Below the pieces are notes generated by a model. It was not told where the DNA came from. It saw nothing but the letters and a program-made list of their open reading frames with translations, and did not search any database. Both the position numbers and the translations under genes were made by a program. From positions 124,001-188,000 of the forward strand of contig JAUVXD010000002.1 in assembly GCA_030603805.1 (NCBI GenBank): DNA of 64,000 nt, read 5' to 3'. Source of the DNA: Acholeplasmataceae bacterium. GTDB taxonomy: Bacteria > Bacillota_I > Bacilli_A > Acholeplasmatales > Acholeplasmataceae. Numbering within the stretch: the first letter of the stretch is position 1; each line of letters opens with the position of its first letter. This document shows positions 1 to 17,952 of the stretch, in pieces.

Positions 1-660
1 CATCAGCCATTCTTCAATGGTTGCAGATAAACCTCTTTTAAGTAAAATAGGCTTTGTTGATTTCCCAAGTGCTTTAAGAAGGTGGAAGTTTTGCATATTT
101 CTAGCACCGACTTGAATGACATCGACATATTGTTCAAAAAGAGGTAGTAAATCAGCTGAAGGAATTTCTGTGACAATGGCTAACCCCAGTTCATCTCCGA
201 TTTTTCTTAACAATTTCAAACCTTCAAGTTCTAAACCTTGAAACGCATAAGGTGAAGTTCTTGGCTTATACGCACCACCTCTAAGCATGTGCGCACCTGC
301 TTTTTTGATTCCTTTGGCTATCACTCTTAATTGATCTTCTGATTCAACAGAACAAGGTCCTGCCATCATCACAAATTGATCTCCACCAATTTCAATATCT
401 TCTCTTATTTTGACAATCGTATCTTTTTTCTTAAAGCTACGACTTGCTTTCTTAAAGGGTGTTGAAACACGGATAACTTCCTTGACACCTTCGAAAGCGT
501 AAAGATCACTAGGATCAATGGCTGAGATATCTCCAATAATGCCGAAAACAACCACATCATCACTTGATGCGTCTTTAATTTCTAAGTTTTTACTTCGAAT
601 AAATTCAACGAGTCTTTCATATTCTTTTTTCGTTGCTTCTTTTTTCATTTGAACAATCAT
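1..660 (-). CDS. aroF: 3-deoxy-7-phosphoheptulonate (DAHP) synthase, type I beta; C-terminal part outside window
   Basis: This enzyme condenses phosphoenolpyruvate with erythrose 4-phosphate, the first step of aromatic amino acid synthesis. The visible 220 residues begin MIVQMKKEA. They hold an N-terminal ferredoxin-like regulatory domain (about residues 1-90), then the start of the TIM barrel with MAGPCSVES, the [16 protein letters not shown] substrate loop, and [21 protein letters not shown]. The N-terminal extension plus the GPCSVE motif is typical of type I beta enzymes of Firmicutes. The start at 660 has AAGGAG about 8 bases upstream. The gene runs off the left edge, so its 3' end and operon partners cannot be seen. 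It is preceded by a Tyr-codon attenuator (separate entries), which suggests control by tyrosine supply. Symbol aroF is used in the Bacillus sense; aroA(G) naming is equally possible. Confidence 0.95.
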
Positions 661-679
661 CGTTCTTCTCCTTTGGTTT

Positions 680-713
680 AAAAATAAAAACACCCCTCAA
701 GGAACCTCGAGGG
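680..713 (-). terminator. Attenuator terminator hairpin before the DAHP synthase gene
   Basis: On the minus strand a stem CCCUCGAGG / CCUUGAGGG (694-713) is followed by GUGUUUUUAUUUUU (680-693). It sits between the leader peptide and the DAHP synthase ribosome site. Its 5' arm overlaps segment D, so antiterminator pairing with segment C would prevent it from forming. Confidence 0.85.
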
Positions 714-783
714 ATGAATGAGTTTCATGTGCCTGCTGTTCCTTTTTTATCGCATAAAAAGGAATGCCTAGCAATCCTTTTGT

Positions 784-974: not shown

Positions 975-989
975 GTAAGGAGGTATGAC

Positions 990-1313
990 ATGAATACACA
1001 ATTCAAAAAAGGTATCCTAGAAATGTGCATTCTTTCGCTCATCAAAGATCATGACATGTATGGTTTTGAAGTGATTGAACGATTATCATCAGAAATTGAT
1101 GTGAACGAAAACACGGTATATCCGATTTTAAGAAGACTCACAACACAAGGACTTTTTGAAACCTACGTTGAGCAAACCAACATCGGAGCACCTAGAAAGT
1201 ATTACCGGTTGACTAAAGCAGGCGACAAAAAATTAGAAGCCTATGAACACGAATGGCGAACATTCTTAAAAGGTGTATTTAAAATATTAGGAGGTATGGA
1301 ACATGAAAAATAA
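990..1313 (+). CDS. PadR family transcriptional regulator
   Basis: This is a 107-residue winged-helix protein: KKGILEMCILSLIKDHDMYGFEVIERL (helix-turn-helix), then NTVYPILRRLTTQGLFETY and APRKYYRLTKAG (wing). That is the standard short PadR (subfamily s1) layout. The start at 990 has AAGGAGG at 977-983; a longer upstream reading frame lacks a ribosome site and would run through the operator. The stop overlaps the next gene by 11 bases, so the two are co-translated. PadR paired with a HAAS-domain membrane protein is a frequent Firmicutes arrangement, often responding to membrane stress. The two TGTG...CACA dyads in its promoter suggest self-repression. Confidence 0.92.
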   Translation: MNTQFKKGILEMCILSLIKDHDMYGFEVIERLSSEIDVNENTVYPILRRLTTQGLFETYVEQTNIGAPRKYYRLTKAGDKKLEAYEHEWRTFLKGVFKILGGMEHEK

Positions 1314-2406
1314 ATATTTAGACGCTCTAAGAGCACAACTTGTGGAGTTTAAAGCAGAAAACTCAGATATCGAAGAAATATTAAGTGACTACAGTCAACT
1401 TTATGATGATGCACTAGACACTAAAGGATCTGATGAAGAGGTGTGGAAGTTATTAGGTGATCCTAAAACAGTTGCTTATGACCTAATCGACACATTAAAG
1501 ATTAAAAAACAAAAAGAAAGAAACATAAAGACAAAACTGATTGCTATTACACCTTTCATCTCTTTAATGACTTTCTTTATCTTAGGGTTTTACTTTGATT
1601 TATGGCATCCAGGGTGGTTAGTCTTCTTACTCATCCCAGTGACATCTATCCTACTTTCAACAAGACTTAAACAAGGCATTATCGCACTCTCACCCTTTGT
1701 TGCCGTCATTACATTTATGATTTTAGGATTTGGGTTTAATTTATGGCATCCAGGCTGGATGATCTTCTTCATCATTCCTTTGGTTTCTATCATCTTAAGT
1801 GCAAAAGCAAAAGAAATCCCAGTAGCCATCTCACCTTTTATAGCAGCAGTCATTTTCTTTATCTTAGGTGAAGTTTATGGTTTATGGAATCCAGGTTGGC
1901 TTGTCTTTTTAATGATTCCGATGATTGGGATTCTTTACAGTAAAAACACACTACACAAAATCATTTATGAATTATCTTTTATCTTCGCGATCGGATTTTA
2001 TCTCTACATGGGCTATATTGAAAATAGTTGGACAACTGGCACATTAGGTTTCTTAGTTCCAGTCATAATGGGTGTCATCTTTGGTGATATTCATATCCTA
2101 TGGAATAATGATTGGGCTAGTTTAAGTAAAGTAAAAGCACTCATTATGGTATTTTTTACTTCAGGTATTCTTGTAGCTTTTATCGTGGTTGGTATCATGT
2201 TTAATGGGTGGGCCTATGCATGGCAGTTCTTCCTTGCCATACCTGTCTTAGCCATCATTTTATTCGACAAATTAAGAATGACTGCGATAATGCCATTTAT
2301 TGCTGTTGCCCTCTTTTTCTCCCTTGGTTATTTCTTTAATCTATTCCATATTTCTTGGCTTGCATTCTTACTCATTCCAGTAACTGCCATTATGGAAAAC
2401 GCATAA
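1303..2406 (+). CDS. HAAS-domain (DUF1700-like) membrane protein with six repeated transmembrane hairpins
   Basis: This is a 367-residue membrane protein of unknown function. Residues 1-70 form a helical HAAS/DUF1700-type domain (MKNKYLDALRAQL, then DEEVWKLLGDPKTVAYDLID). The rest is about six copies of a unit of roughly 43 residues: a hydrophobic stretch ending FFILGF, a short NLWHPGW turn, then a second stretch FLLIPV. Copies 1-3 and 6 are well conserved (LWHPGW, LWHPGW, LWNPGW, LFHISW); copies 4 and 5 have drifted. AGGAGGT precedes the ATG, and the gene overlaps padR by 11 bases. The HAAS domain is a known partner of PadR regulators; a sensing or membrane-stress role is inference. A terminator follows. 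Confidence 0.8.
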   Translation: MKNKYLDALRAQLVEFKAENSDIEEILSDYSQLYDDALDTKGSDEEVWKLLGDPKTVAYDLIDTLKIKKQKERNIKTKLIAITPFISLMTFFILGFYFDLWHPGWLVFLLIPVTSILLSTRLKQGIIALSPFVAVITFMILGFGFNLWHPGWMIFFIIPLVSIILSAKAKEIPVAISPFIAAVIFFILGEVYGLWNPGWLVFLMIPMIGILYSKNTLHKIIYELSFIFAIGFYLYMGYIENSWTTGTLGFLVPVIMGVIFGDIHILWNNDWASLSKVKALIMVFFTSGILVAFIVVGIMFNGWAYAWQFFLAIPVLAIILFDKLRMTAIMPFIAVALFFSLGYFFNLFHISWLAFLLIPVTAIMENA

Positions 2407-2503: not shown

Positions 2504-2877
2504 ATCCTTTTTTACGATAAAAAAATTATTTTTTCATTGAATGCTTGCGAATATCAACAAATATATGAAAACTTCAATTTTCCATGTGAAAAGTATGGAA
2601 ATGAATACTATAATAATGAATTGCCTGTAATCATCAAGCTTTATTTAGGTTTTTTTGAATTGGGATAGATATAGGTCAGTATTTTACTTTACGATTCTTT
2701 GCCAAATCTTACTTTTCTATAAAATATCAGTGTTGGATTGAATTCATTATATATTCATTAATTTATTCAAATGGATTCTATAAAATAATATCCGATGAAG
2801 GTATTAATGCCTCTATCATCAGAAATCTAATACGTGCTATAATAGAAGAAAAGAAAGTCAGGTAAGTAGGGATTGAC
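2504..2877 (+). promoter_or_regulatory. Intergenic region with extended -10 promoter for the TerY-like operon
   Basis: No gene or clear gene remnant is visible in these 374 bases. Close to the next gene is TGCTATAAT, an extended -10 box (TATAAT at 2838-2843) without a good -35. An imperfect dyad, GATGAAGG...CCTCTATCATC (2794-2820), lies where a regulator could bind at the -35. The operator role is inferred from position only. Confidence 0.5.
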
Positions 2878-3573
2878 ATGAATCAAAATCAGTTTAACAC
2901 TCATGTAAACAAGATTTTTTTTGGTTCAATCATTTGGGGAGCTTTCTATCTTCATCTTTTTTTCAATGCCACCAGATGGAATGAGACATATCTAGGCAGT
3001 CGACTGGGCGTTACTTTTAGTTATGAACTGGTCTATGCCATTCAGATTGTTTTCTTCCTTTTTTTGAACTTTAATTTATTCCATTACACGATTGGAAAAA
3101 AGTATAGTGCTTTTGATGTTGATCGTTTTTTTAGAATTCTCATTTTTATAATCATCATCTTAATTTTAGTTCAAGGGGTTACCCTTTATTTTGATTTACC
3201 TTTTCATTATGGTGTCATTGGATATTTAGTAGGTCGGGGAGAACTTATCCATATCACAGCGGGAACTCAAGTGCATCTCTATATTATGTATCTTGCTGGT
3301 ATCATTTTATCTTCCATTTACTTATCTGGCGTTTTAGTTTTTTTATATCAACTCTATAAAATGAATCAGCAGCTCCCTTTTTATATTTGGTTAAGAATTG
3401 GCATTGTGCTCTTCATTTATGGGTATACCTTAGGCTATTCAGAAGCTGGATTTAGTTTCATCACTTTAGGTTTATGTGCATTATATATTTTAATTGCTTA
3501 TGTGATTTACATCAAAACCAAATACAGCATTAAAGCATTACTTGTTTCATTGATCTTGTTATTTCTGCTTTAA
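2878..3573 (+). CDS. Multi-pass membrane protein, first gene of the TerY-like operon
   Basis: I do not recognise this 231-residue protein. It has about six or seven hydrophobic segments, joined by short polar loops, and no soluble domain. It has its own promoter just upstream (extended -10 at 2838-2843) and is followed after 27 bases by the vWA gene, so it is probably co-transcribed with the phosphatase and kinase genes. A membrane sensor or anchor for that set would fit the position, but nothing in the sequence proves it. The start was chosen at the first ATG of the frame; the ribosome site (AGTAGGGA region) is weak. Confidence 0.7.
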   Translation: MNQNQFNTHVNKIFFGSIIWGAFYLHLFFNATRWNETYLGSRLGVTFSYELVYAIQIVFFLFLNFNLFHYTIGKKYSAFDVDRFFRILIFIIIILILVQGVTLYFDLPFHYGVIGYLVGRGELIHITAGTQVHLYIMYLAGIILSSIYLSGVLVFLYQLYKMNQQLPFYIWLRIGIVLFIYGYTLGYSEAGFSFITLGLCALYILIAYVIYIKTKYSIKALLVSLILLFLL

Positions 3574-3600
3574 AAAAATATAGAAAAAGAGGTATGAATC

Positions 3601-4299
3601 ATGAGTACAAACAAAAATGATTTCGAATTTGAAAAGGAAGTCGTGGATGAAGCCTTACTGGATAACCCAGAACCAAGATGTCCTGTTGTTTTACTACTCG
3701 ACACATCGTATTCGATGACTGGAAATCCAATCAATCAACTGAGTGAAGGCGTTTATGCACTTTATGCTGCTTTAAGGGATGATGATTTGGCATCGGTTCG
3801 TGTTGATTTAAGTGTCATTGCTTTCGGACAAAATGTCACAGTTCTTCAAAATTTCGCAACCGTCTCTGAATCACAAGCCCCAGAACTTAAAGTCAATGGC
3901 ATGACCCCTATGGGTGAAGCCATTGTTACCGCACTTAAAAACATTGAAAACCGGAAAAATGAGTATCGCAATGCCGGTATATCTTATTATCGTCCATGGC
4001 TTTTTGTCATCACGGATGGTGAACCCACTGATAATGTCCAAGAAGCAAGCATGATGTTACAACAAGCGATTAGTTCTAAGAAAGTCATTTTCTTTGGTAT
4101 TGGTGTTGAAAATGCGAATATTGAACGCTTAAGACAAATATCTGGGTCACCAGAACGTGTCTTTAAACTCAATGGTTTAAACTTTAAAGAACTCTTCCAA
4201 TGGGTGTCTTCATCTTTATCTTCCGTATCCTCATCACGCGTTGGTGATACACTTAAACTTGAAAAACCAAGCGATGATGTCTTCGAATTTGAGGTTTAG
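3601..4299 (+). CDS. TerY-like von Willebrand factor A domain protein
   Basis: This is a 232-residue single vWA domain. The MIDAS metal site is intact: DTSYS (D34, S36, S38), the Thr of GMTPMGEA (about T102) and the Asp of ITDGEPTD (D139). The length and the motif DTSYSMTG match TerY-type cytoplasmic vWA proteins. It is followed two bases later by a PP2C phosphatase and then by a kinase. That is the vWA-PP2C-kinase triad described for TerY-associated phosphorylation systems. In that family the vWA protein is thought to be a scaffold or substrate of the kinase-phosphatase pair. AAAGAGGT precedes the ATG. Any biological output (stress or phage defence) is not shown by the sequence. Confidence 0.88.
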   Translation: MSTNKNDFEFEKEVVDEALLDNPEPRCPVVLLLDTSYSMTGNPINQLSEGVYALYAALRDDDLASVRVDLSVIAFGQNVTVLQNFATVSESQAPELKVNGMTPMGEAIVTALKNIENRKNEYRNAGISYYRPWLFVITDGEPTDNVQEASMMLQQAISSKKVIFFGIGVENANIERLRQISGSPERVFKLNGLNFKELFQWVSSSLSSVSSSRVGDTLKLEKPSDDVFEFEV

Positions 4300-4301
4300 T
4301 T

Positions 4302-5054
4302 TTGATTAGATTATATGGTGCCTCAGTTGTTGGCACATCTCATCAATTAACAGATACACCCTGTCATGATGCCCATGCTTACCGCATTATAGAAGACGAA
4401 TCGCTTTGTATTGCTTGTGTGAGTGATGGGATGGGTAGTGCCAGTCATGCAGAAATTGGATCCCAAACGGCATCCCGTTTTATCGTTGACTTTTTAGCAA
4501 GAACTTTAGATAGTTCGATGTCTGATGATGAAATTATTAGAACCATTCAAGAAGGCTATGTTGAAGTCAATGATATCCTTCATATGGAAGCAAATGAACG
4601 CGGATTATCCATTAAAGATTTAAATGCCACGTTACTTGTTTTTGTCTCAATCCAAGATCGTCAATTTTATGGTCAGGTTGGAGATTGCGCAGCGATTGGC
4701 AAAATTGGGGATTCCTACGAAGTTATTGCAAGGCAACAAAGAGGCGAGTTTGCAAACGCAACGTTTTCGATATGTAACCTAGAATCGATAGAACATGGTA
4801 TTTACGAAAAGTGTGAGAAATTCTATCCAAGAGTTGCACTGATGAGTGATGGGATTGAAAGCATTTCGATTTCTGCAAAAGATAAAACGGTCTCTGCACT
4901 CTTTTATGATCCCTTTTTTAAAGTTTTTGATCACGAAAACTATGATCAAACTGAAATTCAAAAATCTTTGGAACGTTTTTTATCCTCTGAGCGTATTGGT
5001 AAGAAAACAGATGATGATAAGACACTTCTTTTCATCCAAGTGAGAGGTACATGA
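4302..5054 (+). CDS. PP2C-family serine/threonine phosphatase
   Basis: This is a 250-residue PP2C-like protein. It has the metal-binding motifs VSDGMGSASHAEIGS (about residues 41-55), QVGDCAAIG (mid protein) and MSDGIES (about residue 183). The start is a TTG at 4302, placed by the GAGG of the preceding gene's end. The stop TGA overlaps the ATG of the kinase gene (ATGA), which indicates translational coupling and also shows that TGA is a stop here. It would reverse the action of the adjoining kinase, probably on the vWA protein or on other substrates. It lacks membrane segments. Confidence 0.9.
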   Translation: MIRLYGASVVGTSHQLTDTPCHDAHAYRIIEDESLCIACVSDGMGSASHAEIGSQTASRFIVDFLARTLDSSMSDDEIIRTIQEGYVEVNDILHMEANERGLSIKDLNATLLVFVSIQDRQFYGQVGDCAAIGKIGDSYEVIARQQRGEFANATFSICNLESIEHGIYEKCEKFYPRVALMSDGIESISISAKDKTVSALFYDPFFKVFDHENYDQTEIQKSLERFLSSERIGKKTDDDKTLLFIQVRGT

Positions 5055-7660
5055 GAAAATACTATCTTGAAGATGGATCTAAAATATTAGTTGATGATTC
5101 AAAACCTATTGGTAGCGGTGGCGAAGGTAGTGTTTTTAAACTTGCAAAGAATCCAAATATTTTAGTCAAGGTTTATAATGACCGTGCACTGATGCGTATG
5201 CCTGATATTGAACCCAAAATTAAGGCAATGGTCAGTAAAAAACCTGCACTTCTTGAATATAACGGTTTAACCATCATTGCTTGGCCAAGTTATGTCATCT
5301 ATGATGAGCAAAAGAAATTTGTTGGTTATTTAATGAGACGTGTTCAGGCTAAAAATCAACTTTCTCACGTCATCACTCCAGGACTTCAAGCAAAAAAATT
5401 CCCAAATATTACGTGGTATGACAGATTAGTCATCGCGATTAATTTAGCGAAAGTGATGAGTTTTTTACATAAAAATGATACCGTCATCGGAGATATCAAT
5501 ACTTCTGACTTTTTCGTATATCCTGCATTTGAAATTGGTGTCGTAGATACCGATTCTTTTCAAGTTTCTTCTGAACAAAGACTTTTCCATTGTAAGGTCT
5601 TTACGCCAGACTATACGCCACCCGAAGTGATTGAAGCTAAAAAGAGAACTACCCAAGAAGTGAAAAGAATACCTAATCATGATAACTATGGGCTTGCGAT
5701 TTTAATCTTTCAAATTCTGATGATGGGGGTTCATCCTTTTTCAGCAAGAATCAAAGGGATTCTTGGATTTGATGGAAATGCGATTAACTATAATATGGAA
5801 AATGAAATATTTCCTTATTTTACCAAAAATAGCAATATCATCCCTCCCAAAAATGCGATGCCCTTCTCTTTTTTTCCTAAACACCTTCAAGATTTATTTA
5901 TTAGAGCTTTTGAAAAAAATACAAATGTCATTAATCGTCCAACGGCAGATGAATGGGTGAATGGATTAAGAAAAGTCAAAGATAACATTAAAAAATGTAA
6001 ACGTCATAAAGCCCATTATTATCCAAATCATTTCCAAAAATGCCCGATTTGTGCCAAAGAACAAACGAAAGACTATGACTATTTATTAGAACACTTTAAA
6101 ACGATTTCTAAAAAATATGTCAAATATGAAACTAGTGATAAACCCATCATCGTTGATGAAAATCATAGTTATGATGAAACCTTGGTTTCTAAGAGTTATA
6201 CTTTAAAAAACAGTAAAAAACTTGCCATCTTCTTCCATCCCAAGATGATTGAAAAATATCATTTGGATCAAAGAATCGAAGTTCATGTCGCACTTAAGAG
6301 TTATCAAAAGATGAAACAATACTTCTTGCCTCCAGAAGATATTATCTATGATTCAGGAAAAACAAGAGTTATTGGTTATGTTTCACCTGCAAGAGAACCT
6401 TTATATAAGCTCCAAAATTTCTTTAAGAATAACCGCTTAGGCAAACTTAAAATTACAGAGAAAACAAAATGGATTGTTGCAAGAAATATCGCATCCATGT
6501 TTTCAGTTTTAGAAAAATATGAGACGCATATTGAAATCAATCAGATTTTTGTAGATAAAAATTTAAATGTCTTTGTTCCTGATGTTGTTCTGATGGGGAC
6601 TCCTGATCAAAAGTTTAAGTCCATGAGTTTTCAAAAGGAAGAGTATTTACCTCAAGAATATTATTTGATGCTCAAGTATCAAGCTTATCAAAGAGAAATT
6701 CAAGCACAAATCGATCTTGAAAAGGAAAAAGAAAGAAAACGACTTGAAGCCATTAGACAAAAAGATTTAGATTTAATCAAATCACCTTTCGAAAAAGAAA
6801 AAGAGAAAAAACAGAAAGCCTTAGAAGAAAAAGAAGCGAAAGTGATTGAGCTTAAACCTGAAAAAGAAGTTATTGACTTTGAATTTGAGAAGTCTCATGA
6901 CGCTTTGATAGAAAAAGAACCCGAGGAAGAGAAAGTCGAAGTTCCTTTAAAATTTGAGAGTTTTGATATCAACAGCAAACAATCCATAAGATTTACACTT
7001 GCAGTGATAATCTTCATGATTCTAAATGATGAGCATCCTTTTAGGGGGACTTATAAGCTTGCCCATAAGAATATCTCATTTTTTGTTGAGAATAATTATT
7101 TTATCCATAAGGGATTTGTGCCTGGTGCTGAAATTATAGAACGCTCAAAACTGATTGAAACATTCCCTAATTATTATCAAAAGACATTAAAAAATGCCTT
7201 ATATTTAAAAGATCCTTTAAAGATTCATCGACCTTCGCCTTCAGAGTGGCATGGTGTTTTATCTAAAATGATTTTTGAATCTAAGAAATGTGATACCAAT
7301 GAATACCATTTTTATCACCAAAGCATGACCAAGTGTCCACATTGCTATACGAAAGAACCCAAAGATCATGAACAGGTGAGACGTTTTGTCCGAGAAAACA
7401 AACGTGGTATCATTCATCACATGATTTTCGCAAACAAGATTCTAAACTATTCAACTTTAGCGGGGATATTACTTGGCGTCCTTTATGTAGTTAACCGATA
7501 TAGTTTTTCAAACTTAGATCAAATGCTTTCTGACATTAATTTCTTAGATAAGATTGAAACGCTTAAAAATTTTATCCGCTATGATGACATCATCGGTTTC
7601 TTCAGAAATCTTTTTAATGGGTTGAAAAACCTATATGATTCTATCTTTGGAGGTGCTTAA
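5051..7660 (+). CDS. Large tandem serine/threonine kinase-like protein with zinc ribbons, coiled coil and C-terminal membrane segment
   Basis: This is an 869-residue protein. The first kinase domain (about 1-310) has the glycine loop GSGGEGS (21-27), a Lys at 40 (LVKVY), the catalytic loop GDINTSD with D148, and the metal site DTDS with D166. The Asn normally five residues after the catalytic Asp is Asp153 here. A zinc-ribbon-like CKRH...CPIC follows near residues 316-336. A second, degenerate kinase-like region starts near 370. It is interrupted by a charged coiled coil (about 555-640), resumes with NDEHPFRGTY, and ends in a second CxxC-type ribbon (KCDTNEYHF...CPHC). One membrane segment lies near 800. 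In TerY-type triads the kinase usually has one kinase domain plus a ribbon, so this looks like an internal duplication. The second copy lacks recognisable catalytic residues. Confidence 0.82.
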   Translation: MRKYYLEDGSKILVDDSKPIGSGGEGSVFKLAKNPNILVKVYNDRALMRMPDIEPKIKAMVSKKPALLEYNGLTIIAWPSYVIYDEQKKFVGYLMRRVQAKNQLSHVITPGLQAKKFPNITWYDRLVIAINLAKVMSFLHKNDTVIGDINTSDFFVYPAFEIGVVDTDSFQVSSEQRLFHCKVFTPDYTPPEVIEAKKRTTQEVKRIPNHDNYGLAILIFQILMMGVHPFSARIKGILGFDGNAINYNMENEIFPYFTKNSNIIPPKNAMPFSFFPKHLQDLFIRAFEKNTNVINRPTADEWVNGLRKVKDNIKKCKRHKAHYYPNHFQKCPICAKEQTKDYDYLLEHFKTISKKYVKYETSDKPIIVDENHSYDETLVSKSYTLKNSKKLAIFFHPKMIEKYHLDQRIEVHVALKSYQKMKQYFLPPEDIIYDSGKTRVIGYVSPAREPLYKLQNFFKNNRLGKLKITEKTKWIVARNIASMFSVLEKYETHIEINQIFVDKNLNVFVPDVVLMGTPDQKFKSMSFQKEEYLPQEYYLMLKYQAYQREIQAQIDLEKEKERKRLEAIRQKDLDLIKSPFEKEKEKKQKALEEKEAKVIELKPEKEVIDFEFEKSHDALIEKEPEEEKVEVPLKFESFDINSKQSIRFTLAVIIFMILNDEHPFRGTYKLAHKNISFFVENNYFIHKGFVPGAEIIERSKLIETFPNYYQKTLKNALYLKDPLKIHRPSPSEWHGVLSKMIFESKKCDTNEYHFYHQSMTKCPHCYTKEPKDHEQVRRFVRENKRGIIHHMIFANKILNYSTLAGILLGVLYVVNRYSFSNLDQMLSDINFLDKIETLKNFIRYDDIIGFFRNLFNGLKNLYDSIFGGA

Positions 7661-7661
7661 G

Positions 7662-7868
7662 ATGGTCTTACAAGTATTTGCATATATCTTCATCGGACTT
7701 GCCATCTTTTGGGTCATCCTCAATCTTTTTTGGTTGATCATTTTAGGCATTAAAAAATACACCAACATCAAGCTTCCTCAAGAAATTGAATTTCATGTGA
7801 AAAAGACGATTAAAATAAATTTCATCTACTTGGTTGTCTTTGCCGTATTGGGGTATTTGTTCATATGA
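7662..7868 (+). CDS. Small membrane protein of the TerY-like operon
   Basis: This 68-residue protein has two hydrophobic helices (FAYIFIGLAIFWVILNLFWLII and the C-terminal NFIYLVVFAVLGYLFI) joined by a charged loop of about 20 residues. I do not recognise the family. The start at 7662 is preceded by TTTGGAGGTG. It follows the kinase stop by one base and overlaps the next gene by 4 bases, so it is part of the operon. A partner for the membrane-anchored kinase is possible but unproven. Confidence 0.65.
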   Translation: MVLQVFAYIFIGLAIFWVILNLFWLIILGIKKYTNIKLPQEIEFHVKKTIKINFIYLVVFAVLGYLFI

Positions 7869-8101
7869 AAAATATACTAAGTTTACTGATCCTCGGTGTG
7901 TTTGCTATTTACTTTATTCAAAGATCTTTATTTGACACGCTCCTCAATAATTTAGTCCATGTAAGTCAGTTCCTGCTTCTATTCTATGTGATTTGGATTT
8001 TATTCTATGATTTTTTTAGATCGCTAAAAAAGAAACTTGGCGAAAAATTTGGTATCCATTTGAAAAGGTTCAAAAGAAAAATCTACAAGTTAAAAAGATA
8101 A
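7865..8101 (+). CDS. Small membrane protein with basic tail, last gene of the TerY-like operon
   Basis: This 78-residue protein has two hydrophobic stretches (about 3-20 and 30-50) and a strongly basic C-terminal tail (SLKKKLGEKFG...KRFKRKIYKLKR). The tail should face the cytoplasm, by the positive-inside rule. The ATG overlaps the stop of the preceding gene by four bases (ATGA). No known family is recognised. A terminator follows immediately. Confidence 0.62.
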   Translation: MKNILSLLILGVFAIYFIQRSLFDTLLNNLVHVSQFLLLFYVIWILFYDFFRSLKKKLGEKFGIHLKRFKRKIYKLKR

Positions 8102-8128
8102 CCACACATCGCTGTGTGGTTTTATTTT
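8101..8128 (+). terminator. Terminator of the TerY-like operon
   Basis: The stem ACCACACA (8101-8108) / TGTGTGGT (8113-8120), loop TCGC, is followed by TTTATTTT. It lies between two convergent operons; the opposite strand also has a fair T-rich tail, so it may act both ways. Confidence 0.75.
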
Positions 8129-9176
8129 AGAGCTTGTCAAATTGAATTGCTGCAAAAATTAATGCTGCGATTCCATAAGACCAATTCTTCCCTCTAGGAA
8201 TCAGTTTATAGCCTAAGTAAGGGAAAATCGGTAGTGGTATGGTTGGCCCAGATATCTCTGGCATATAAATTGAATCCTCATCAATGATCAGTGCATCCAC
8301 ACAAGCTTTAAATGCTTTAATGCCTGCTTCTTTATAGGTTTCATCTAAAAGATTTAATCGATACCCATGCATAAACCCAGCAGCAACCAACGCTGTAAAT
8401 GAAAGTTCTCTATATGTTTTGCCAACTTTATTTATAACGGTTTCAAAGGTGCCATCACTTCTTTGATAGGGTAGAAGCGCTTGGCAGGTGTTTTTGAAGA
8501 TTTGGATAATATGATCTTTTTCTTCGTGATTTCCAATGTTATCTAAAATCATTGGTAGGGACGCAACCACCCACCCATTACCTCTTCCCCAAAAAATCTT
8601 TCTTCTGGGGTAATGCGTTTTTTGTTTAACCCAATAACAGTGATACCAAAGATGTGAATCTTTATCTTGCATGTATTTAGACATAATTCTTGGTTGTCTT
8701 GCTGCAATATTCATCATCGCTTGATCTTGATGATCTTTTGCATAATGTGAGGGAAATACTGAAAACATCATGAGACTATCGACCCAAATTGATTTGGGAT
8801 AGAATTTGCCTTCAGGGCTATTGCCTAAATGATTCACCGAGTCTTCGATGAGTCTTGGTTCGTTTTTAATATAGTTTAAAACACGGTCTGTGAGTTTCTT
8901 ATAGTCCTCATTTTTTGTCTTCTTATACATTTGATAGGTAATTAAACCAGGTGCTGATGTATCGCTTTGATCAACTCTCGGTTGATTTTTCACATAGTAA
9001 TCACAATAAGCTTTTAAAAACTCTGTATAATCCTCTGTTTTTTGGTGCTCATCTAAAAGACTTAAAGCATACCCAAGTAAAGCTTCACCCCACATCCATT
9101 TCATTTTGGGGTCCCATGTTTTTTTAATGAAGTTTGCGAGATGGACTACGCTTTGGTAATAAGACTGTTCTGGCAT
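8127..9176 (-). CDS. Unsaturated glucuronyl / rhamnogalacturonyl hydrolase family protein (GH88/GH105-like)
   Basis: This 349-residue cytoplasmic protein has an alpha/alpha toroid pattern. Motifs of the family are visible: WMWGEALLGYAL near the N-terminus, SIWVDSLMMFSVF (the Asp is the expected catalytic acid) and RGNGWVVASLP. These enzymes remove the unsaturated uronic sugar left at oligosaccharide ends by polysaccharide lyases, by hydrating the double bond. There is no signal peptide, so it acts on imported oligosaccharides, in agreement with the transporter in the same operon. It is the last gene of the glycan operon. Its start (AGGGAGG about 11 bases before the ATG) lies inside the end of the upstream gene, with a 53-base overlap. 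The exact substrate cannot be read from the sequence. Confidence 0.85.
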   Translation of the reverse strand: MPEQSYYQSVVHLANFIKKTWDPKMKWMWGEALLGYALSLLDEHQKTEDYTEFLKAYCDYYVKNQPRVDQSDTSAPGLITYQMYKKTKNEDYKKLTDRVLNYIKNEPRLIEDSVNHLGNSPEGKFYPKSIWVDSLMMFSVFPSHYAKDHQDQAMMNIAARQPRIMSKYMQDKDSHLWYHCYWVKQKTHYPRRKIFWGRGNGWVVASLPMILDNIGNHEEKDHIIQIFKNTCQALLPYQRSDGTFETVINKVGKTYRELSFTALVAAGFMHGYRLNLLDETYKEAGIKAFKACVDALIIDEDSIYMPEISGPTIPLPIFPYLGYKLIPRGKNWSYGIAALIFAAIQFDKL

Positions 9177-11019
9177 AGCATTTTTCCTCCCTTTTAAGAT
9201 TCTTAAAGTCTAAGAATAAGACGTCGTTATGATAATAAATGGTTAGTTTTTTAGGATCTCTTTTCGATTGTACAAACGGTGTATCGAAACGATCATAAGA
9301 TAGAGACATTTTCTTTTGATCTTTGAAGAACTTTCCTGATGATCTTAATAGATAGTGATGTGTATTTTGTAAACTCACCTTTTGACTGGAGAACATATAA
9401 GATAAAGACTTCACATATTTATTAAAGTTTTCAAAACTACCCATCTCATCCTTAGATGAAACTAAGACAATAAACTGAAGTTTCTTACCGAAATAAATAA
9501 GTTCCTCTTCCTCTTTAACTTCATAGGGTTTCGAGGAGATGATGGCGATATAAGAATCCTTCACTCGACCTAAGATGACTTGATCTCTTTGAACAACTTG
9601 ATCCATCTTCTTCATTGGAAAGTAAAAGTGAACTAGATGTAATCTTTCTTTCTCCAAATAACCCTTTCTAGGCGTTAAATCATACATCAAAAACAAGGTG
9701 TTCTCATCTTGAACAGAAAGCGGATTGATGCCATTACCTACCCAATAAGAGGGTGAAAAATTTCTGGCTGCATCATCAAACATTGGGCTTCCCGGATGGG
9801 TTGAAAAGATGTTGACTTGATTAGGTAAAGTAGCTTGCCAAATGTGGTGTTGATCACCAAATTTCTTAGGATGATATTTTTGAGCAGTCGATAACATATA
9901 ATCTTTCGTCTTATAAGTATAGGTGTTTGCACGTTCAATCGCGACCCCTTGTGTGGCTGGATTAAGCAGTTTAACAACGAAAGGAAGTAATTTGAGTTTT
10001 CTTAGAATGGGAATATTGACTGAACCTAAATCCTTTAAGAAATTATTGTCTTGTAGCTTCCATGCATTAAATATTTTCATGGTCATATCAATCGACTCTG
10101 GATTGGTGAATGCTTCCATTTGCCATAAAAACATACCCAAATCATCGATCTCATAATTTTGAAGTGTACGTTTAACTTCATTTAAATCAAGACCCATGGA
10201 ATCTTTAATAATGAGTGGGTCTTTAACCGATGCAATCATTTTGATGACATCAGGAACTTGATAGTTTTTAGATAAAATGAAAAGACTTGATAATCTTTCA
10301 TAATCATATTCTTTTTTAATAATCCCAAACGCATGGGCTAAAATATCATTAACGTCATGTAAATTTGAATCCTTCTTCTGGGCCTCATAACATCTGCCAG
10401 AAGTTGCAACAAAATAGCCTTCAAAACTATGAAGTGCCATATCTAAAAAGAGAAGATCTAAAATCATTTTAGACTTTTCAACAATTTCATGATCATTGGC
10501 ATAATCAACGAGCATCACTAAAGGTGCGATATCTTCTTCGTAGTATGTATTGGAATGCCACTCGATAAAGCCAAATCTAAACTTATAATCAAGCCATCTA
10601 ATGATTTTTTTATGTGCTTTTTCGATATGATAATATCCAGGGTTTCCATCATTTTTAAATGTTTCATCTGGAAAAAGATGGCCGACTAAATATTCACATG
10701 TATGAAAAAGTATTTGATGATTTTCAGACCAAAAGCACATGCCATCGCTTCCTGGTTCATCCATCCAATATTTAAACCCTAGCATTGCATCTTTGATTTT
10801 TTCAACCAAAGCCTCAGATAAAAGATGTTTGTAAGCGATATAGGTCTTAATCAAGACAATCATTCTAAAATCTGCACAGTCAAAACGCTGATTGACAAAA
10901 TCAATCAGGACTTCAATTTGAGCTTCATCAATCTTCTTTCCTTGTTCAAGTAAGATGATATCTTTAAAGCTTTTGCTATTCATTTTGATGTTCATGCCAA
11001 CGTCAGCTTTAACTGTCAT
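9124..11019 (-). CDS. Large uncharacterised protein of the glycan operon, paralogue of the 723-residue protein
   Basis: This 631-residue protein has no signal peptide. It is clearly related to the gene at 13225-15396. Shared blocks include FKYWMD...CFWSENHQILF, GFIEWHSNTYYEEDIAP, GVAIERANTYTYKT, GDQHHIWQA.LPNQVNIF and YWVGNG. The first half is rich in helices and aromatic residues, as in alpha/alpha-toroid polysaccharide lyases or hydrolases; the second half looks beta-rich. I cannot name a known family with confidence. The invariant His, Glu and Tyr in ENHQ and SNTYYEEDIAP are candidate catalytic residues. AAGAGGT precedes the ATG. A polysaccharide-degrading role is inferred from the operon: symporter, GH88/105-type enzyme and isomerase-like protein. 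Confidence 0.6.
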   Translation of the reverse strand: MTVKADVGMNIKMNSKSFKDIILLEQGKKIDEAQIEVLIDFVNQRFDCADFRMIVLIKTYIAYKHLLSEALVEKIKDAMLGFKYWMDEPGSDGMCFWSENHQILFHTCEYLVGHLFPDETFKNDGNPGYYHIEKAHKKIIRWLDYKFRFGFIEWHSNTYYEEDIAPLVMLVDYANDHEIVEKSKMILDLLFLDMALHSFEGYFVATSGRCYEAQKKDSNLHDVNDILAHAFGIIKKEYDYERLSSLFILSKNYQVPDVIKMIASVKDPLIIKDSMGLDLNEVKRTLQNYEIDDLGMFLWQMEAFTNPESIDMTMKIFNAWKLQDNNFLKDLGSVNIPILRKLKLLPFVVKLLNPATQGVAIERANTYTYKTKDYMLSTAQKYHPKKFGDQHHIWQATLPNQVNIFSTHPGSPMFDDAARNFSPSYWVGNGINPLSVQDENTLFLMYDLTPRKGYLEKERLHLVHFYFPMKKMDQVVQRDQVILGRVKDSYIAIISSKPYEVKEEEELIYFGKKLQFIVLVSSKDEMGSFENFNKYVKSLSYMFSSQKVSLQNTHHYLLRSSGKFFKDQKKMSLSYDRFDTPFVQSKRDPKKLTIYYHNDVLFLDFKNLKREEKCYARTVLLPKRSPSRKLH

Positions 11020-11028
11020 AATGACCTC

Positions 11029-12456
11029 TTAAAAAATAGCTTTCTCTAGTAGATTGAGTTCTTCTTGTTCTTCTTTTGATAGTTTAGTTTTCGTTTCTCT
11101 AAGCTTTAAGAACTTTCTTACTTGATGGCTTCTTTCATTGGTTAAAACAAACTTACGAGCCATAATATAACCGACTGTCATCAATAAAACAAAGCTTAAA
11201 GACATGGCAAGTCTAATGCCTAAAAGTGCGCCAGCGGGTTGTGTCGGGAGCGGTTCTAAATCTGTTGGTTTGAGATAACCAGATACAGCAAGCATAATCC
11301 CAAAAATTTGAATGGCAATTGCACTACTCGTTTTTCTAATAAATGTCATAATGCCAGAAAAAGATCCTGTGGGTCTTTCTTTAAGCATGAGTTCTCCTGC
11401 ATCGACGGCATCCGGGAAAATAATCCAGCTCATCAGTTGTGCACCAGCAAAGCCAAGTGCAGTCACAGCAGTGAGTCCATAAGCACCAAAAATCGGCCAA
11501 TCACTTGGATATAATCCAACCCCGACAAAACCTATAATAGCAATCGGTAGGCCAAAATAATAAATCTTCTTCTTATCGACTGTATTGACTAACTTGTTAA
11601 TGATTGGAAACATCAAAAGTTGAATACCAATAAAAGTGCCTAAGAAAATGGTTGGGCTTCCCTTAACGACATAAAGCGCGTAATAGATAATCCCCGCAGA
11701 TAAGATATCCATCGAAATACTTTGGCATAAATACATATAAGTGAGACCTCTAAAAGCTTTAACTTTGAGGGGTTTTACAAATGTTTTAACTTCAAAGACT
11801 GATTTTTCCGTAGGAATAACGACTCTTTCTTTGGTAAAAAGACCTATTAAAATTAAAGGTAATGCAAAGAATAATCCAAAACCAATACCTACAGCAAGAT
11901 AGAATACTTCAATTCCAAAGCTTCCTGCCTTATAGGATTCTAAAATCATCGTTGGTACTAACGTACAAACTGCGGTTGCTACAGTAGAAACAACCAGTCT
12001 TAAGACATTGACAGTATTACGTTCTTTAACATGGGTTGTAATTTCTGCGGATAAAGAACTATAGGGTACTGCAATAATGGTTGAAATCGTACTGTAAAAC
12101 AAGAATGTTGAGATTGCAAATACAACTTTACCTGTTTCAGATTGCCACCCACCGATTGGCATCCACATTAATGCGAATGCGATAATGACCATGATCCCAC
12201 CAAAAAAGATATAAGGTCTTCTTCTGCCAAATTTTGTTCTGGTATTATCAGAGATAATGCCCATTAAAGGATCTGAAATCGCATCCCAAACCTTTGAGAT
12301 TAAAATCGCGGTTGCTGCGATTGCAGGATTGAGTCCAATAATATCCGTTAGGAAGATGAGATAAAGCACGCCAATTAAAGCTTGTGCCCCACCTCCAAAA
12401 ACATCTCCCCATGCAAAAATGACTTTCTCTTTTGTTTTCATTTGATTAGTTTCCAT
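11029..12456 (-). CDS. GPH-family (MelB-like) sugar:cation symporter
   Basis: This is a 475-residue, 12-helix transporter of the glycoside-pentoside-hexuronide:cation symporter family. Diagnostic motifs are FAWGDVFGGGAQALIGVLY at the N-terminus, SKVWDAISDPLMG (the Asp residues form the cation site) and DNTRTKFGRRRPYI in the first cytoplasmic loop. The start was set at 12456 because AAGGGAGAG lies 7 bases upstream; an upstream in-frame ATG at 12492 has no ribosome site. It overlaps the isomerase-like gene by 11 bases. It probably imports the oligosaccharide or uronide processed by the GH88/105-like enzyme, with Na+ or H+. Confidence 0.9.
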   Translation of the reverse strand: METNQMKTKEKVIFAWGDVFGGGAQALIGVLYLIFLTDIIGLNPAIAATAILISKVWDAISDPLMGIISDNTRTKFGRRRPYIFFGGIMVIIAFALMWMPIGGWQSETGKVVFAISTFLFYSTISTIIAVPYSSLSAEITTHVKERNTVNVLRLVVSTVATAVCTLVPTMILESYKAGSFGIEVFYLAVGIGFGLFFALPLILIGLFTKERVVIPTEKSVFEVKTFVKPLKVKAFRGLTYMYLCQSISMDILSAGIIYYALYVVKGSPTIFLGTFIGIQLLMFPIINKLVNTVDKKKIYYFGLPIAIIGFVGVGLYPSDWPIFGAYGLTAVTALGFAGAQLMSWIIFPDAVDAGELMLKERPTGSFSGIMTFIRKTSSAIAIQIFGIMLAVSGYLKPTDLEPLPTQPAGALLGIRLAMSLSFVLLMTVGYIMARKFVLTNERSHQVRKFLKLRETKTKLSKEEQEELNLLEKAIF

Positions 12457-13222
12457 GTGTCTCTCCCTTTGGTTCAAATAAATGTGCAACATTGTTTTTT
12501 AAATATTTCATGCTCATATCAATGCTTTGCATCGGATGCTTTGTATCTTGTTCGATCACCATATATCCTGCAAAGGTTTTACCATATTCGATTACTTTTT
12601 TAAAATCTACTGTACCTCTGCCAAGTTCAGTATCGTATGCCTTTTTAGTTTTGTCGTCAAAGTTGTAATCTCTTAAATGGATCCCCATGAGTCTTTTACC
12701 CACACGATTGATTAAATCCAGTGGAACGACCTTAGATTTTGTTGCCCAGTAGGTGTCTAAGACAAATTTGACTTTTGGATTAGTTTCCCGGTAAAGAATT
12801 TCAAACTTCGTTAACTTACCTACTTTTTTGAATTCATAATCATGGTGATGAAACCCTAATTCAATCTCATGTTTTTCATAAATCTTTTGAAGTTTATTGA
12901 GTTTTTTTGCAAAACTGATGAGTGCTTTTTCCTGACCTAAAATTGCAGAAATAGGCAAAACAGAAACACAGACTCTATTGCAAGAGGTCATCTTGCAAAA
13001 ATCAACTATTTTTTTAACTTTTCTCTTCAATTTTTTATACGTGAGTTGAATCGCTAATACTTCTATTTGATGCTGATTAAGTAGTGCAACCGTCATATCA
13101 TTGATGGGTATCCTTGCCAGTTCAACACCATGGACATCTCTTCTTTTAAGTAATGTGAGCGTGACACTGAGTTTTTTCTTTAAAAGATGTCTCACCGTAT
13201 AGGTTTGTACACCAAACTTCAT
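12446..13222 (-). CDS. Sugar phosphate isomerase/epimerase-like TIM barrel protein
   Basis: This 258-residue protein belongs to the AP endonuclease family 2 / xylose isomerase-like fold. It starts MKFGVQTYTVRHLL. Metal-ligand motifs are visible: HHHDYEF, the Asp in KFVLDTYW, MGIHLRDYN, GRGTVDFK and VIEQD near the C-terminus. Such proteins act as isomerases, epimerases or dehydratases on sugars and inositols. It lies between the large predicted lipid-anchored or membrane-anchored protein and the symporter, two bases from its upstream neighbour, and is surely co-transcribed. The substrate is unknown. Confidence 0.82.
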   Translation of the reverse strand: MKFGVQTYTVRHLLKKKLSVTLTLLKRRDVHGVELARIPINDMTVALLNQHQIEVLAIQLTYKKLKRKVKKIVDFCKMTSCNRVCVSVLPISAILGQEKALISFAKKLNKLQKIYEKHEIELGFHHHDYEFKKVGKLTKFEILYRETNPKVKFVLDTYWATKSKVVPLDLINRVGKRLMGIHLRDYNFDDKTKKAYDTELGRGTVDFKKVIEYGKTFAGYMVIEQDTKHPMQSIDMSMKYLKNNVAHLFEPKGETHGN

Positions 13223-13224
13223 AA

Positions 13225-15396
13225 CTACACGACCGTTCTGGTTAAGTTTTGATAGTTTAAGGTAAGTCTTCTACTATTCAATTCAAAGATAATCGTTTCA
13301 GGTTTTCTTTGAATACCAAGAGGTGCGACATAGGGGCCTTCAAATCTTAAATATTCTAAATCTAAAATTTGATTATTCACTGAAAATGAGGTAGCGTAAA
13401 TCGCTTTGAGCGTTGAGATTTGCGATGTTTGGTTCAGTACTGTTTGATAGGTAACTGAATGTTCTGCCTTATTATAGGTGATGGTGTTACTTAAAAATCT
13501 TGAAATAAAGGCTCCAAAAGATTCGGTTGTTGTATCTGAGAGTTCAATGACGAAGTAGTGATCTCCTACGCCTTTTTGAACAAGATCATATTTTTCTGTA
13601 ATCGTGTCCTTTACAGAACCTCTCACCAATAAATCATCACGATCTCCCTCTTGATTGCTGATTTCAAATGGCACAAACTCAAGGGCATATCTGGCTTTAA
13701 TGGCAATCATTGCTGCACCAACTCGACCAAAAATGTAGCCCTCTTCTAATCTTGTTTCATCGACTTCGTCAAAGAGTTGATAAGGAAAATAGACATGGGT
13801 CATTTCCTTCATAATCATCGGTTCCATAAATCCAACTTTTGTTGGCGGTTGATAGATTTGAATGCTTACATTCTTTTCTTGGACTAAATAACCCTGTCTA
13901 CCATTGCCAGTCCAATAGGTTGGAGTTCCTGAACGTCTTGGAATTTTTGCGGGTTGTGTGGTAAAAATAGAGACTTGATTCGTTAAATTAATTTGTGAAA
14001 TGGCATGTTGGTCTGCATATTCACCGGGTTGATAGGCTTGTGCTGTATGCATCGAATAATATGGTGTTTTATAGGTGTATACATTGGCTCTTTCAATAGC
14101 AACACCATTGGTTGAAGGTTGTAATGTTTCACTGACCCATCCTAAAAGATTAAAAAGTCTAAGAGGCCATAAATTAACCAGTTTAAAGTCATTAAGAAAA
14201 TCATTTCTAAACATGTTGTGTTTAGACATATAGTTAATCGTGTTATCAACCACTGCAGGATTACTGAAGGCTTCCATATTCCATTGCATCATGATTTGAT
14301 GATCTTCTAAGCCTAATAAACCTTCACCTTTAAGTTCTTCAACATTTAAAGATTGGGTCGAACGAATGATTTTTTCAGAAGATGCATCATCAAAAATTTC
14401 TTTAATAACTTCTGGAACAATGTAGTAAGGATTGCCAAAGTCATCGGTAGCCTCAGACATTTGTCTAAAACTATTGAAAAAGCCACTACTTGATGTAAAC
14501 CAGCTATTGGCTAAATCCTTCGTTTCTAAGGGTTGCATCACATAATCAATAAAAGGTCTCATGCGATTGCCATGATCATCAGAAACACGGTTATCTGAAT
14601 ACATTCTGCCACTACTTGATACAAATATATAATAGGTTCTTGGTAAAAAGGTTACGGGGTCTACGCCTTCATATTTAAAGGATTGTGAAGCCATATCGTA
14701 CCACAAAAGATCCATAATAATCTTCATTCTCGAAACCATCGTGCTGTTATTCGAAAATTGAATGATATTAGACATTGGAGCGATATCTTCTGGATAGTAA
14801 TTATTGGAATACCATTCTGTAAATCCATAAAGATATCTTTGTTCCATCCATGCGTTAATTCTTCGCTCAGCCATTTCCATATGCTCAGCTCCGGTTTTAC
14901 CATCGACTGTAAAGATTTCATCAGGGAATGTTTGACCGACTAAATACTCCGAAGATGCAAACAAGATTTGATGATTTTCAGACCAATAGCACATCGAATC
15001 TTCTCCACCTTGGTCCATCCAATACTTAAAATCAAGTAAAACACGCTTGATATCTTCTTGGGTATCGGGATTAAGTTCATCCTTAAAGGAAAGATAAAAT
15101 CTAACCAAAGCTTGAACTCTAAAATCGGCAACATCATAACGTCCGTTGATATAATCAAAAGTTCCAGAAAGTTCACTATTGATGAACTCATCTGTTAAAA
15201 CAATACCTTCAGGTAGTGCCTCTCCTTTGGACGTTTTATAAAAATAGTAGAGTAAACGGTCCCCACCACCAGAATTATAAGGTCCTGATGGGCGTTGCGG
15301 TAGTGGGTTTATTTGCATGTTAATTGCAAACTGGATGCCTAAACTGAGTAAAAACAAAAAAAGAACTATAATAATATATAACACCGTTTTTTTCAT
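13225..15396 (-). CDS. Large membrane-anchored uncharacterised protein, first gene of the glycan operon
   Basis: This 723-residue protein has an N-terminal membrane segment (LYIIIVLFLFLLSLGIQFAI, about 5-24) and the remainder outside the cell. It is a paralogue of the 631-residue protein at 9124-11019, which lacks the anchor. The motifs FKYWMDQGGEDSMCYWSENHQILF and EWYSNNYYPEDIAP and the GVAIERANVYTYKT block align. One copy outside and one inside the cell suggests that both act on the same type of glycan, long chains first and imported fragments later; this is inference. The start has AAGTAGGT about 8 bases upstream. A promoter lies at 15491-15518. The family is not recognised; it may be a polysaccharide lyase or hydrolase. 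Confidence 0.6.
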   Translation of the reverse strand: MKKTVLYIIIVLFLFLLSLGIQFAINMQINPLPQRPSGPYNSGGGDRLLYYFYKTSKGEALPEGIVLTDEFINSELSGTFDYINGRYDVADFRVQALVRFYLSFKDELNPDTQEDIKRVLLDFKYWMDQGGEDSMCYWSENHQILFASSEYLVGQTFPDEIFTVDGKTGAEHMEMAERRINAWMEQRYLYGFTEWYSNNYYPEDIAPMSNIIQFSNNSTMVSRMKIIMDLLWYDMASQSFKYEGVDPVTFLPRTYYIFVSSSGRMYSDNRVSDDHGNRMRPFIDYVMQPLETKDLANSWFTSSSGFFNSFRQMSEATDDFGNPYYIVPEVIKEIFDDASSEKIIRSTQSLNVEELKGEGLLGLEDHQIMMQWNMEAFSNPAVVDNTINYMSKHNMFRNDFLNDFKLVNLWPLRLFNLLGWVSETLQPSTNGVAIERANVYTYKTPYYSMHTAQAYQPGEYADQHAISQINLTNQVSIFTTQPAKIPRRSGTPTYWTGNGRQGYLVQEKNVSIQIYQPPTKVGFMEPMIMKEMTHVYFPYQLFDEVDETRLEEGYIFGRVGAAMIAIKARYALEFVPFEISNQEGDRDDLLVRGSVKDTITEKYDLVQKGVGDHYFVIELSDTTTESFGAFISRFLSNTITYNKAEHSVTYQTVLNQTSQISTLKAIYATSFSVNNQILDLEYLRFEGPYVAPLGIQRKPETIIFELNSRRLTLNYQNLTRTVV

Positions 15397-16985: not shown

Positions 16986-17045
16986 CTGGTATGTTTATTT
17001 TTTTTCAAACTGAATATTTGTGTATACCAGTTATCATTATATAAT
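16986..17045 (+). promoter_or_regulatory. pdxR-pdxST divergent control region
   Basis: The pdxS promoter has -35 TTGTGT (17018-17023), a 16-base spacer and -10 TATAAT (17040-17045). Two inverted 7-base elements, CTGGTAT (16986-16992) and ATACCAG (17024-17030), stand 38 bases apart. One overlaps the pdxR start region and the other lies inside the pdxS spacer. They are good candidates for PdxR binding sites; binding is inferred. Confidence 0.6.
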
Positions 17046-17076
17046 AATAACGGACATTCTACAAGGAGGGATCCCT

Positions 17077-17952
17077 ATGCAAAATCAACGTTATAAACTC
17101 AACAAAGAACTTGCGCAAATGCTAAAAGGCGGCGTCATCATGGACGTCTCAACGCCAGAACAAGCAAAGATAGCTGAAAAGGCTGGTGCGGTTGCTGTCA
17201 TGGCACTCGAAAGAATTCCAGCTGACATTAGAGCTGCTGGTGGTGTCTCAAGAATGAGCGATCCAAAAATGATTAGAGAAATTCAAAAAGCCGTTTCTAT
17301 TCCTGTTATGGCAAAAGTTAGAATTGGCCATTTTGTCGAAGCACAGATTTTAGAAGCGATTGAAATCGATTATATCGACGAAAGTGAAGTCTTATCTCCA
17401 GCAGATGATATCCATCATATTGACAAAAATAAATTTAACGTTCCCTTTGTTTGTGGTGCTAAAAATTTAGGCGAAGCCTTAAGACGCATTTCTGAAGGCG
17501 CAGCCATGATTCGCACCAAAGGTGAACCAGGAACTGGCGATGTCATTCAAGCAGTGAGACATATGAGAGAAATCACTAAGGATATTAGACGGATTCAATC
17601 TTTGCACGAAGATGAGCTTTATGTGCTTCAAAAAGAACTTGGTGTCTCAATCGATTTAATTAAGTATGTTCATGAACACGGCAAACTTCCTGTGGTTAAC
17701 TTTGCTGCTGGCGGTATCGCTACCCCTGCAGATGCAGCACTGATGATGCAACTTGGTGCTGAAGGTGTCTTTGTTGGTTCCGGTATTTTTAAATCTGGTA
17801 ATCCAGCTAAACGTGCAGAAGCTATTGTTAAAGCAGTGACCAATTATAATGACCCAAAAATTCTTGCAGAAGTCTCTGAAGACTTAGGTGAAGCAATGGT
17901 TGGGATTAATGAATCTGAAATTGAACTTTTAATGGCAGAACGAGGCAAATAA
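17077..17952 (+). CDS. pdxS: Pyridoxal 5'-phosphate synthase, synthase subunit
   Basis: This 291-residue subunit makes PLP from ribose 5-phosphate, glyceraldehyde 3-phosphate and ammonia. The TIM-barrel family blocks are all present: [20 protein letters not shown], the reactive Lys in [37 protein letters not shown] and [20 protein letters not shown]. Length and sequence are typical of PdxS (SNZ family). The start at 17077 is preceded by AAGGAGGG; a longer frame upstream would cross the promoter. The stop overlaps the pdxT ATG by one base (TAATG). Ammonia comes from the PdxT partner. Expression is probably under PdxR. Confidence 0.97.

Follow-up and report, generated by a model that had tools for sequence, protein, structure and literature searches.

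Six closely packed, co-directional genes, carried by uncultured Acholeplasma-like bacteria and spanning positions 2878-8101 of the window (the whole 64,000-nt stretch of DNA analyzed), combine a known kind of vWA/PP2C/kinase triad with two elements that appear to be new: a kinase-repeat architecture and three dedicated membrane proteins. We estimate at about one half the probability that this cassette constitutes a portable, membrane-anchored Ser/Thr phospho-switch reporting on the envelope, with an input and an output that we infer. The features of the region are listed in Table 1.

Table 1. Features of the six-gene cassette (positions refer to the window, residues to the product of gene 4).
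Feature	Location	Strand	Description
Extended -10 promoter element	2835-2843	+	TGC followed by TATAAT (2838-2843); precedes gene 1
Gene 1 (c3)	2878-3573	+	231-aa multi-pass membrane protein, about 6-7 helices
Gene 2	3601-4299	+	vWA adaptor, YegL type; PF00092, E 1.5e-17
Gene 3	4302-5054	+	PP2C-type Ser/Thr phosphatase, TTG start; PF13672 (PP2C_2), E 5.6e-36
Gene 4	5051-7660	+	869-aa kinase
Kinase domain	residues 5-315		
First zinc ribbon	residues 316-334		
Pseudokinase-like repeat	residues about 356-745		charged insert at about 540-640
Second zinc ribbon	residues 747-765		
Membrane anchor	residues about 790-816		
Gene 5 (c5)	7662-7868	+	68-aa small membrane protein, two predicted TM
Gene 6 (c4)	7865-8101	+	78-aa small membrane protein, two predicted TM, basic tail
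Intrinsic-terminator-like hairpin	8100-8121	both	9 pairs, after gene 6

An earlier note on this DNA had described the three triad genes as adjacent and translationally coupled. This is borne out by a gap of 2 nt between the vWA and PP2C genes and a 4-nt overlap (ATGA) between the PP2C and kinase genes. Coupling extends to the 3' part, with 1 nt separating the kinase gene from gene 5 and a 4-nt overlap between genes 5 and 6; the start of gene 5 is most likely at 7662, the position used in relatives, rather than at 7635 as in the longest form of the ORF. The triad and the three membrane proteins had also been placed in a single operon, with which the recurrence of the six-gene order in relatives agrees. 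Upstream of gene 1, all six letters of the TATAAT box are invariant in 11/11 aligned upstream regions, including those of two relocated copies (L025 and L026), and the box is preceded by TGn in most of them. No -35 element is conserved in these 11 regions, and a consensus promoter scan did not list the box. Since it is invariant even in copies sited elsewhere, the six-gene unit carries its own promoter. Terminator-like sites number 7 in the region, against 3.1 expected from shuffles. Membrane segments of the cassette proteins are as predicted from hydropathy and predicted helices, and no recognized effector or DNA-binding domain was found in any of the six genes.

Judging from sequence relationships, the triad is of the Escherichia coli YegL/PphC/YegI type and TerY-P-like in the broad sense. 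The vWA protein is 49% identical to YegL over 204 aa (hhalign E 1.1e-48), the phosphatase aligns with PphC (YegK; E 3.3e-24), and residues 16-338 of the kinase, including the first zinc ribbon, align with YegI (E 1.2e-37). In E. coli MG1655 the genes lie in the order yegL, pphC, yegI, with yegJ between the last two on the opposite strand, which is the same family order as in the cassette, and both YegI and the cassette kinase are kinases with membrane segments. However, the YegI alignment stops at residue 338, beyond which the cassette kinase has a kinase repeat and YegI does not. The remaining part of YegI contains hydrophobic segments, no second kinase repeat, and what is presumably a helix-hairpin-helix region; plasmid homologues carry a helix-hairpin-helix annotation. 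The two proteins differ in their active-site letters (GDVNQNSF and DSDSF in YegI, GDINTSDFF and DTDSF in the cassette), and the E. coli set lacks genes 1, 5 and 6. According to the accessible text of PMC13232886, citing Rajagopalan and Dworkin, YegI is a membrane-bound, self-phosphorylating, active kinase that PphC dephosphorylates.

A TerY-P triad, as defined in the accessible part of PMC11090510, consists of a vWA protein, a PP2C and a Ser/Thr kinase with a fused zinc ribbon, encoded by adjacent genes. The cassette shares this arrangement with such triads (Anantharaman 2012; Gao 2020), including the CoCoNuT-associated ones: its vWA has a MIDAS, its PP2C gene is adjacent, and its kinase domain is followed by a C-terminal zinc ribbon. 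It differs from them in that no Ter, restriction or nuclease neighbors were seen and in having a pseudokinase-like repeat, a membrane anchor and three membrane proteins. The term TerY-like, used in the earlier note, can thus be retained for the broad TerY-P type, with YegL/PphC/YegI as the more exact assignment. In a search with TerY profiles, which the note had proposed as a check, PADLOC TerY matched the vWA protein weakly (E 0.0027) and E. coli YegL and PphC were unmatched; because the E. coli control fails as well, these profiles are uninformative on membership. A TerY-C domain was not found in a Pfam scan of the vWA protein. Pairs of the PrkC/PrpC type comprise a membrane kinase with a PP2C partner; the cassette departs from these in its kinase family, in the added vWA and in the three membrane partners. 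As had been suspected, an Acholeplasma-like version with membrane partners seems undescribed: the literature searched, which included few subscription papers, yielded no six-gene form, no kinase-pseudokinase in such a triad and no such membrane partners.

In a structure model of middling quality (pLDDT 68), residues 5-315 of the kinase have a protein kinase fold (structure comparison Z about 20). Pfam Pkinase falls just under its cut-off (29.8 versus 31.7 bits, E 5e-7), and a sequence-based search of solved structures gave no match to the kinase profile. The unusual active-site letters (the ILVK lysine, GDINTSDFF and DTDSF) are fixed in 16/16 kinases, and residues C316, C331 and C334 of the first zinc ribbon are invariant in 11/11. 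The second half of the protein repeats the first (hhalign probability 98.5%, E 3.7e-15). It has no glycine loop, the equivalent of K40 is I393 in the window and a hydrophobic or aromatic residue in relatives, and the catalytic-loop Asp is not safely placeable in the alignment. We thus regard this half as a probable degenerate, pseudokinase-like repeat, with a kinase-like fold predicted from the sequence repeat. The second zinc ribbon ends the repeat in all 15 sequences reaching it, a count that leaves out the G406 kinase, which is cut by a contig end.

The kinase and the vWA protein may share a short motif. FxFExS-like letters occur at both ends of the vWA protein, whose C-terminus reads FEFEV, and are absent from E. 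coli YegL. With the FxFE pattern picked post hoc, 20,000 shuffles of one sequence each gave P 0.00135 for two copies in the vWA protein and P 0.24 for one copy in the kinase. The case for a shared motif derives from the conservation of FxFExS in 16/16 kinases inside an otherwise poorly conserved charged insert of about 100 residues. It is a guess of ours that the copies in the two proteins compete for the same site.

The MIDAS of the vWA protein is intact (DTSYS...T102...D139), with D34, S36, S38, T102 and D139 invariant in 12/12 copies, and the metal-binding Asp motifs of the PP2C are likewise invariant in 12/12. The last 30 residues of the vWA protein show one or two differences among the copies compared. 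Identity to the vWA protein of G000 is 84% in G329, 84% in G492, 86% in G406 and 80% in G530, whereas the same comparisons yield 61-63% for partial RpoB (63% in G329, 61% in G406), 48-53% for the kinase and 33-36% for gene 1. In these alignments, conservation across orders is higher for the vWA protein than for RpoB. Recent transfer was considered as a cause of this similarity and rejected, four-fold sites of the vWA gene being only 19-48% identical over nine comparisons and showing roughly the divergence seen in the PP2C gene; such divergence points to purifying selection instead. In an unrelated pair of triads (L035 and L037), the vWA protein is again the slowest of the three (96% versus 88% and 84%).

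Gene 1 belongs to no Pfam, NCBIfam or PADLOC family. Its profile matches only the 12 carriers among the 160 genomes of the order; a thirteenth match (54 aa with 5 internal stops) was dismissed as spurious. A Foldseek search with gene 1 found nothing. When its AF2 model (pLDDT 81) was aligned to Foldseek's own rows, the top two were SpdC (Z 6.7, rmsd 5.0, 184 aligned) and Rce1 (Z 6.6, rmsd 4.4, 179 aligned), at Z values below the tool's trusted level. When gene 1 was compared by profile against 13 CPBP-family proteins from the genus, the probability was 0.5%. Thus, an Abi/CPBP identity is suggested by the structural rows and not by sequence, and may serve as a lead. SpdC, an Abi membrane protein of Staphylococcus aureus, controls the sensor kinase WalK through membrane contacts (accessible text of PMC5854430); the likeness is a works-like idea only, that of a multi-pass membrane protein acting on a kinase.

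Gene 5 has no Pfam family, a match of gene 6 to Pfam at E 0.092 was discounted, and both genes are conserved in 12/12. No separate gene 5 was found in three Izimaplasma genomes (G329, G492 and G530), where, in a search of six proteins, the gene 5 profile matched the C-terminus of the kinase instead (E 7e-9, 4.5e-6 and 4.8e-7, respectively). A relative of gene 6 follows these fused kinases, weakly matched in G329 (E 7e-5) and G492 (E 7e-4) and better in G530 (E 2e-8). The fusion in three genomes ties gene 5 to the membrane anchor of the kinase, with which it probably partners.

Ten further complete loci from Acholeplasmatales (L022-L031) have the same six genes in identical order, as do a split Acholeplasmatales locus (L032 plus L033) and, in a second order, a locus on two contigs of one genome (L079 plus L080). 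A survey of neighboring genes in relatives had been proposed in the earlier note, and the membrane partners are indeed kept beside the triad in two orders. The kinase search covered 160 genomes of the first order, 18 of which matched, and 90 genomes of the second. Thirteen of the 18 correspond to the cassette: 11 of the 20 genomes of the genus (one of them, G044, with the cassette split over two contigs), G077 from another genus, and G076. The remaining five (G091, G143, G144, G145 and G150) hold different triads. Carriers in the second order are G329, G492, G406, G530 and G516, the last with a locus visible from the PP2C gene onward only as the contig ends there. The gene order is identical wherever contigs allow, and the named copies of such loci come from Acholeplasmataceae and Candidatus Izimaplasma MAGs. 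G076 (L034, 6315-7369) has kept no more than kinase pieces and a relative of gene 6, beside a 1754-aa protein, and the locus is apparently a decaying cassette.

Within the genus, nine of the 11 carriers hold the six genes at one site, marked by genes for PadR, a HAAS-domain membrane protein and DAHP synthase. An extra gene lies in between in four of these nine; in one it encodes an RsmB/F methyltransferase, and in the other three it falls in the same cluster as this gene. The site could be read in 7/9 non-carriers, and the block is absent from all seven; in G027 and G041, both 99% complete, the HAAS gene directly adjoins a GH88 gene. The two genomes unread at the site (G035 and G040) have weak HAAS paralogues only. 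In the two other carriers (G030 and G034) the block is located elsewhere and their own HAAS site is without it; an IS110-type transposase lies about 1.2 kb from the relocated G034 copy. On an RpoB tree of the 20 genomes, the carrier/non-carrier label needs three changes. The empty sites in relatives and the relocated copies indicate that the cassette behaves as one unit, and it occurs as a whole or not at all in the genomes compared. In the kinase tree, 11 Acholeplasmatales kinases group together (98/97), apart from those of Izimaplasma, so that transfer between orders does not look recent. Origins from a plasmid or a phage were rejected: none of the 56 matching plasmid records covers 80% of the query (among the 15 matches listed of the 56, only the N-terminal half of the kinase is matched), and two phage records have weak matches to that same half. 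Viral contigs yielded no relative.

Matches to PP2C_2 and Pkinase (E <= 0.001) occur in exactly the same 11/20 genus genomes, which are the carriers; G039 and G044 have one further kinase each. The nine non-carriers, with completeness of 81-99% (99% in two), gave no match to either model. For most carriers, these models see no Hanks-type kinase or PP2C beyond the cassette. As the kinase and the phosphatase are gained and lost jointly, by cells without other such enzymes, the first substrates are likely to lie inside the cassette. The triad and its likely membrane sensors form a single transferable unit, offering a low-background system: upon adding or removing a single block, every Hanks-type/PP2C phosphorylation event should follow.

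We envisage that genes 1, 5 and 6 and the kinase anchor would form a membrane complex sensing the state of the envelope. The pseudokinase-like repeat would relay this state and set the activity of the N-terminal kinase, which would phosphorylate itself and the vWA protein, or what the latter holds; the first substrates, at least, would be internal to the cassette. The PP2C would reset phosphorylation, and the vWA protein would carry the signal. The near-frozen sequence of this protein suggests a grip on something equally conserved. Envelope stress would be the likeliest input; wall-less bacteria are among the relatives of the carrier lineages. A bolder version, which we consider doubtful, likens the layout to a bacterial JAK: a membrane-tethered kinase and pseudokinase in tandem, with a three-protein receptor complex and a vWA readout through FxFE, movable and supplying the entire Hanks-type system at once.

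The pattern of gain and loss speaks against the phospho-switch inasmuch as an add-on for defense or stress would fit it as readily as a sensor would. Defense stays the main rival because TerY-P-like triads are protective against phage: Pseudomonas aeruginosa TerY-P protects against Autographiviridae (accessible text of PMC10889362), and triads with OB-fold kinases protect against phage (Gao et al. 2020, as reported in the accessible part of PMC11090510). The cassette could then act against phage on its own, as a membrane form of the TerY-P defense triads in which phage-caused changes in the membrane or in replication trip the kinase and the vWA protein drives protection or growth arrest; its patchy occurrence (11/20 genus genomes) and its movement as a unit would fit. 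However, the stand-alone defense kinases described in that part of PMC11090510 carry an OB-fold after the kinase, where the cassette has the kinase repeat. Moreover, the cassette has no effector domain, metabolic genes lie on either side of its main site, and the kinase tree groups by order. Flanking proteins were scanned as samples of 10 and 6 at E 0.001 with no clear defense protein emerging: in the first, nine gave nothing and one a marginal 'E2' match (E 0.00094); in the second, defense matches were 0/6. A defense hot spot at the HAAS/PadR site was also rejected, no defense gene being called in two non-carriers inspected (an MFS transporter in G033; ferric-reductase-like and cytochrome-b5-like proteins in G036). 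With no named defense gene among the scanned flanks and no viral-contig relative, the link to phage defense drawn in the earlier note is unsupported, and we hold the anti-phage reading to be possible, if somewhat unlikely.

An ordinary house-keeping Ser/Thr signaling operon, standing in for PrkC/PrpC and lost in some lineages, would account for the common chromosomal site in 9/11 genus carriers, for genes that are intact and under strong purifying selection, and for the order-wise grouping of kinases. Yet 9/20 genus genomes, two of them 99% complete, have neither the cassette nor any other Pkinase or PP2C_2 match, and two copies have moved, which makes this account rather improbable. The association with tellurite/stress gene sets made in the earlier note found no support as regards tellurite, TerD being above cut-off in 0/160 genomes of the order. 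A tellurite or metal-stress module, as in Ter gene sets, would be consistent with the metal site of the vWA, the zinc ribbons and the weak TerY profile match; given the TerD result and the lack of TerY-C in the vWA Pfam scan, we consider it very improbable. The phospho-switch remains the reading that we prefer.

Some further observations concern the surroundings of the cassette and other triads. The PadR regulator and the HAAS-domain multi-pass protein (window 984-2406, with an internal repeat pattern of LWHPGW segments) are matched in 20/20 genus genomes, as a weak paralogue only in two. On the minus strand, window 8127-15396 holds a sugar-use locus with a GH88 hydrolase, an MFS_2 transporter, a xylose-isomerase-like TIM barrel and two large proteins without Pfam match, which we guess to be heparinase-like; this locus is conserved beside the cassette site in several genomes. 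At 17020-18524, a SOR_SNZ/SNO pair of the type seen in vitamin B6 synthesis lies beside a GntR-aminotransferase regulator. Other vWA/PP2C/kinase triads, with different neighbors, were found at L035-L039 and at L083 and L084 (Izimaplasma order); the L083 triad has two vWA genes, and several vWA proteins of these triads likewise finish with an acidic-aromatic tail. Three YegL-like vWA genes stand in tandem in G223, a further genome of the class (L143, 930-3095).
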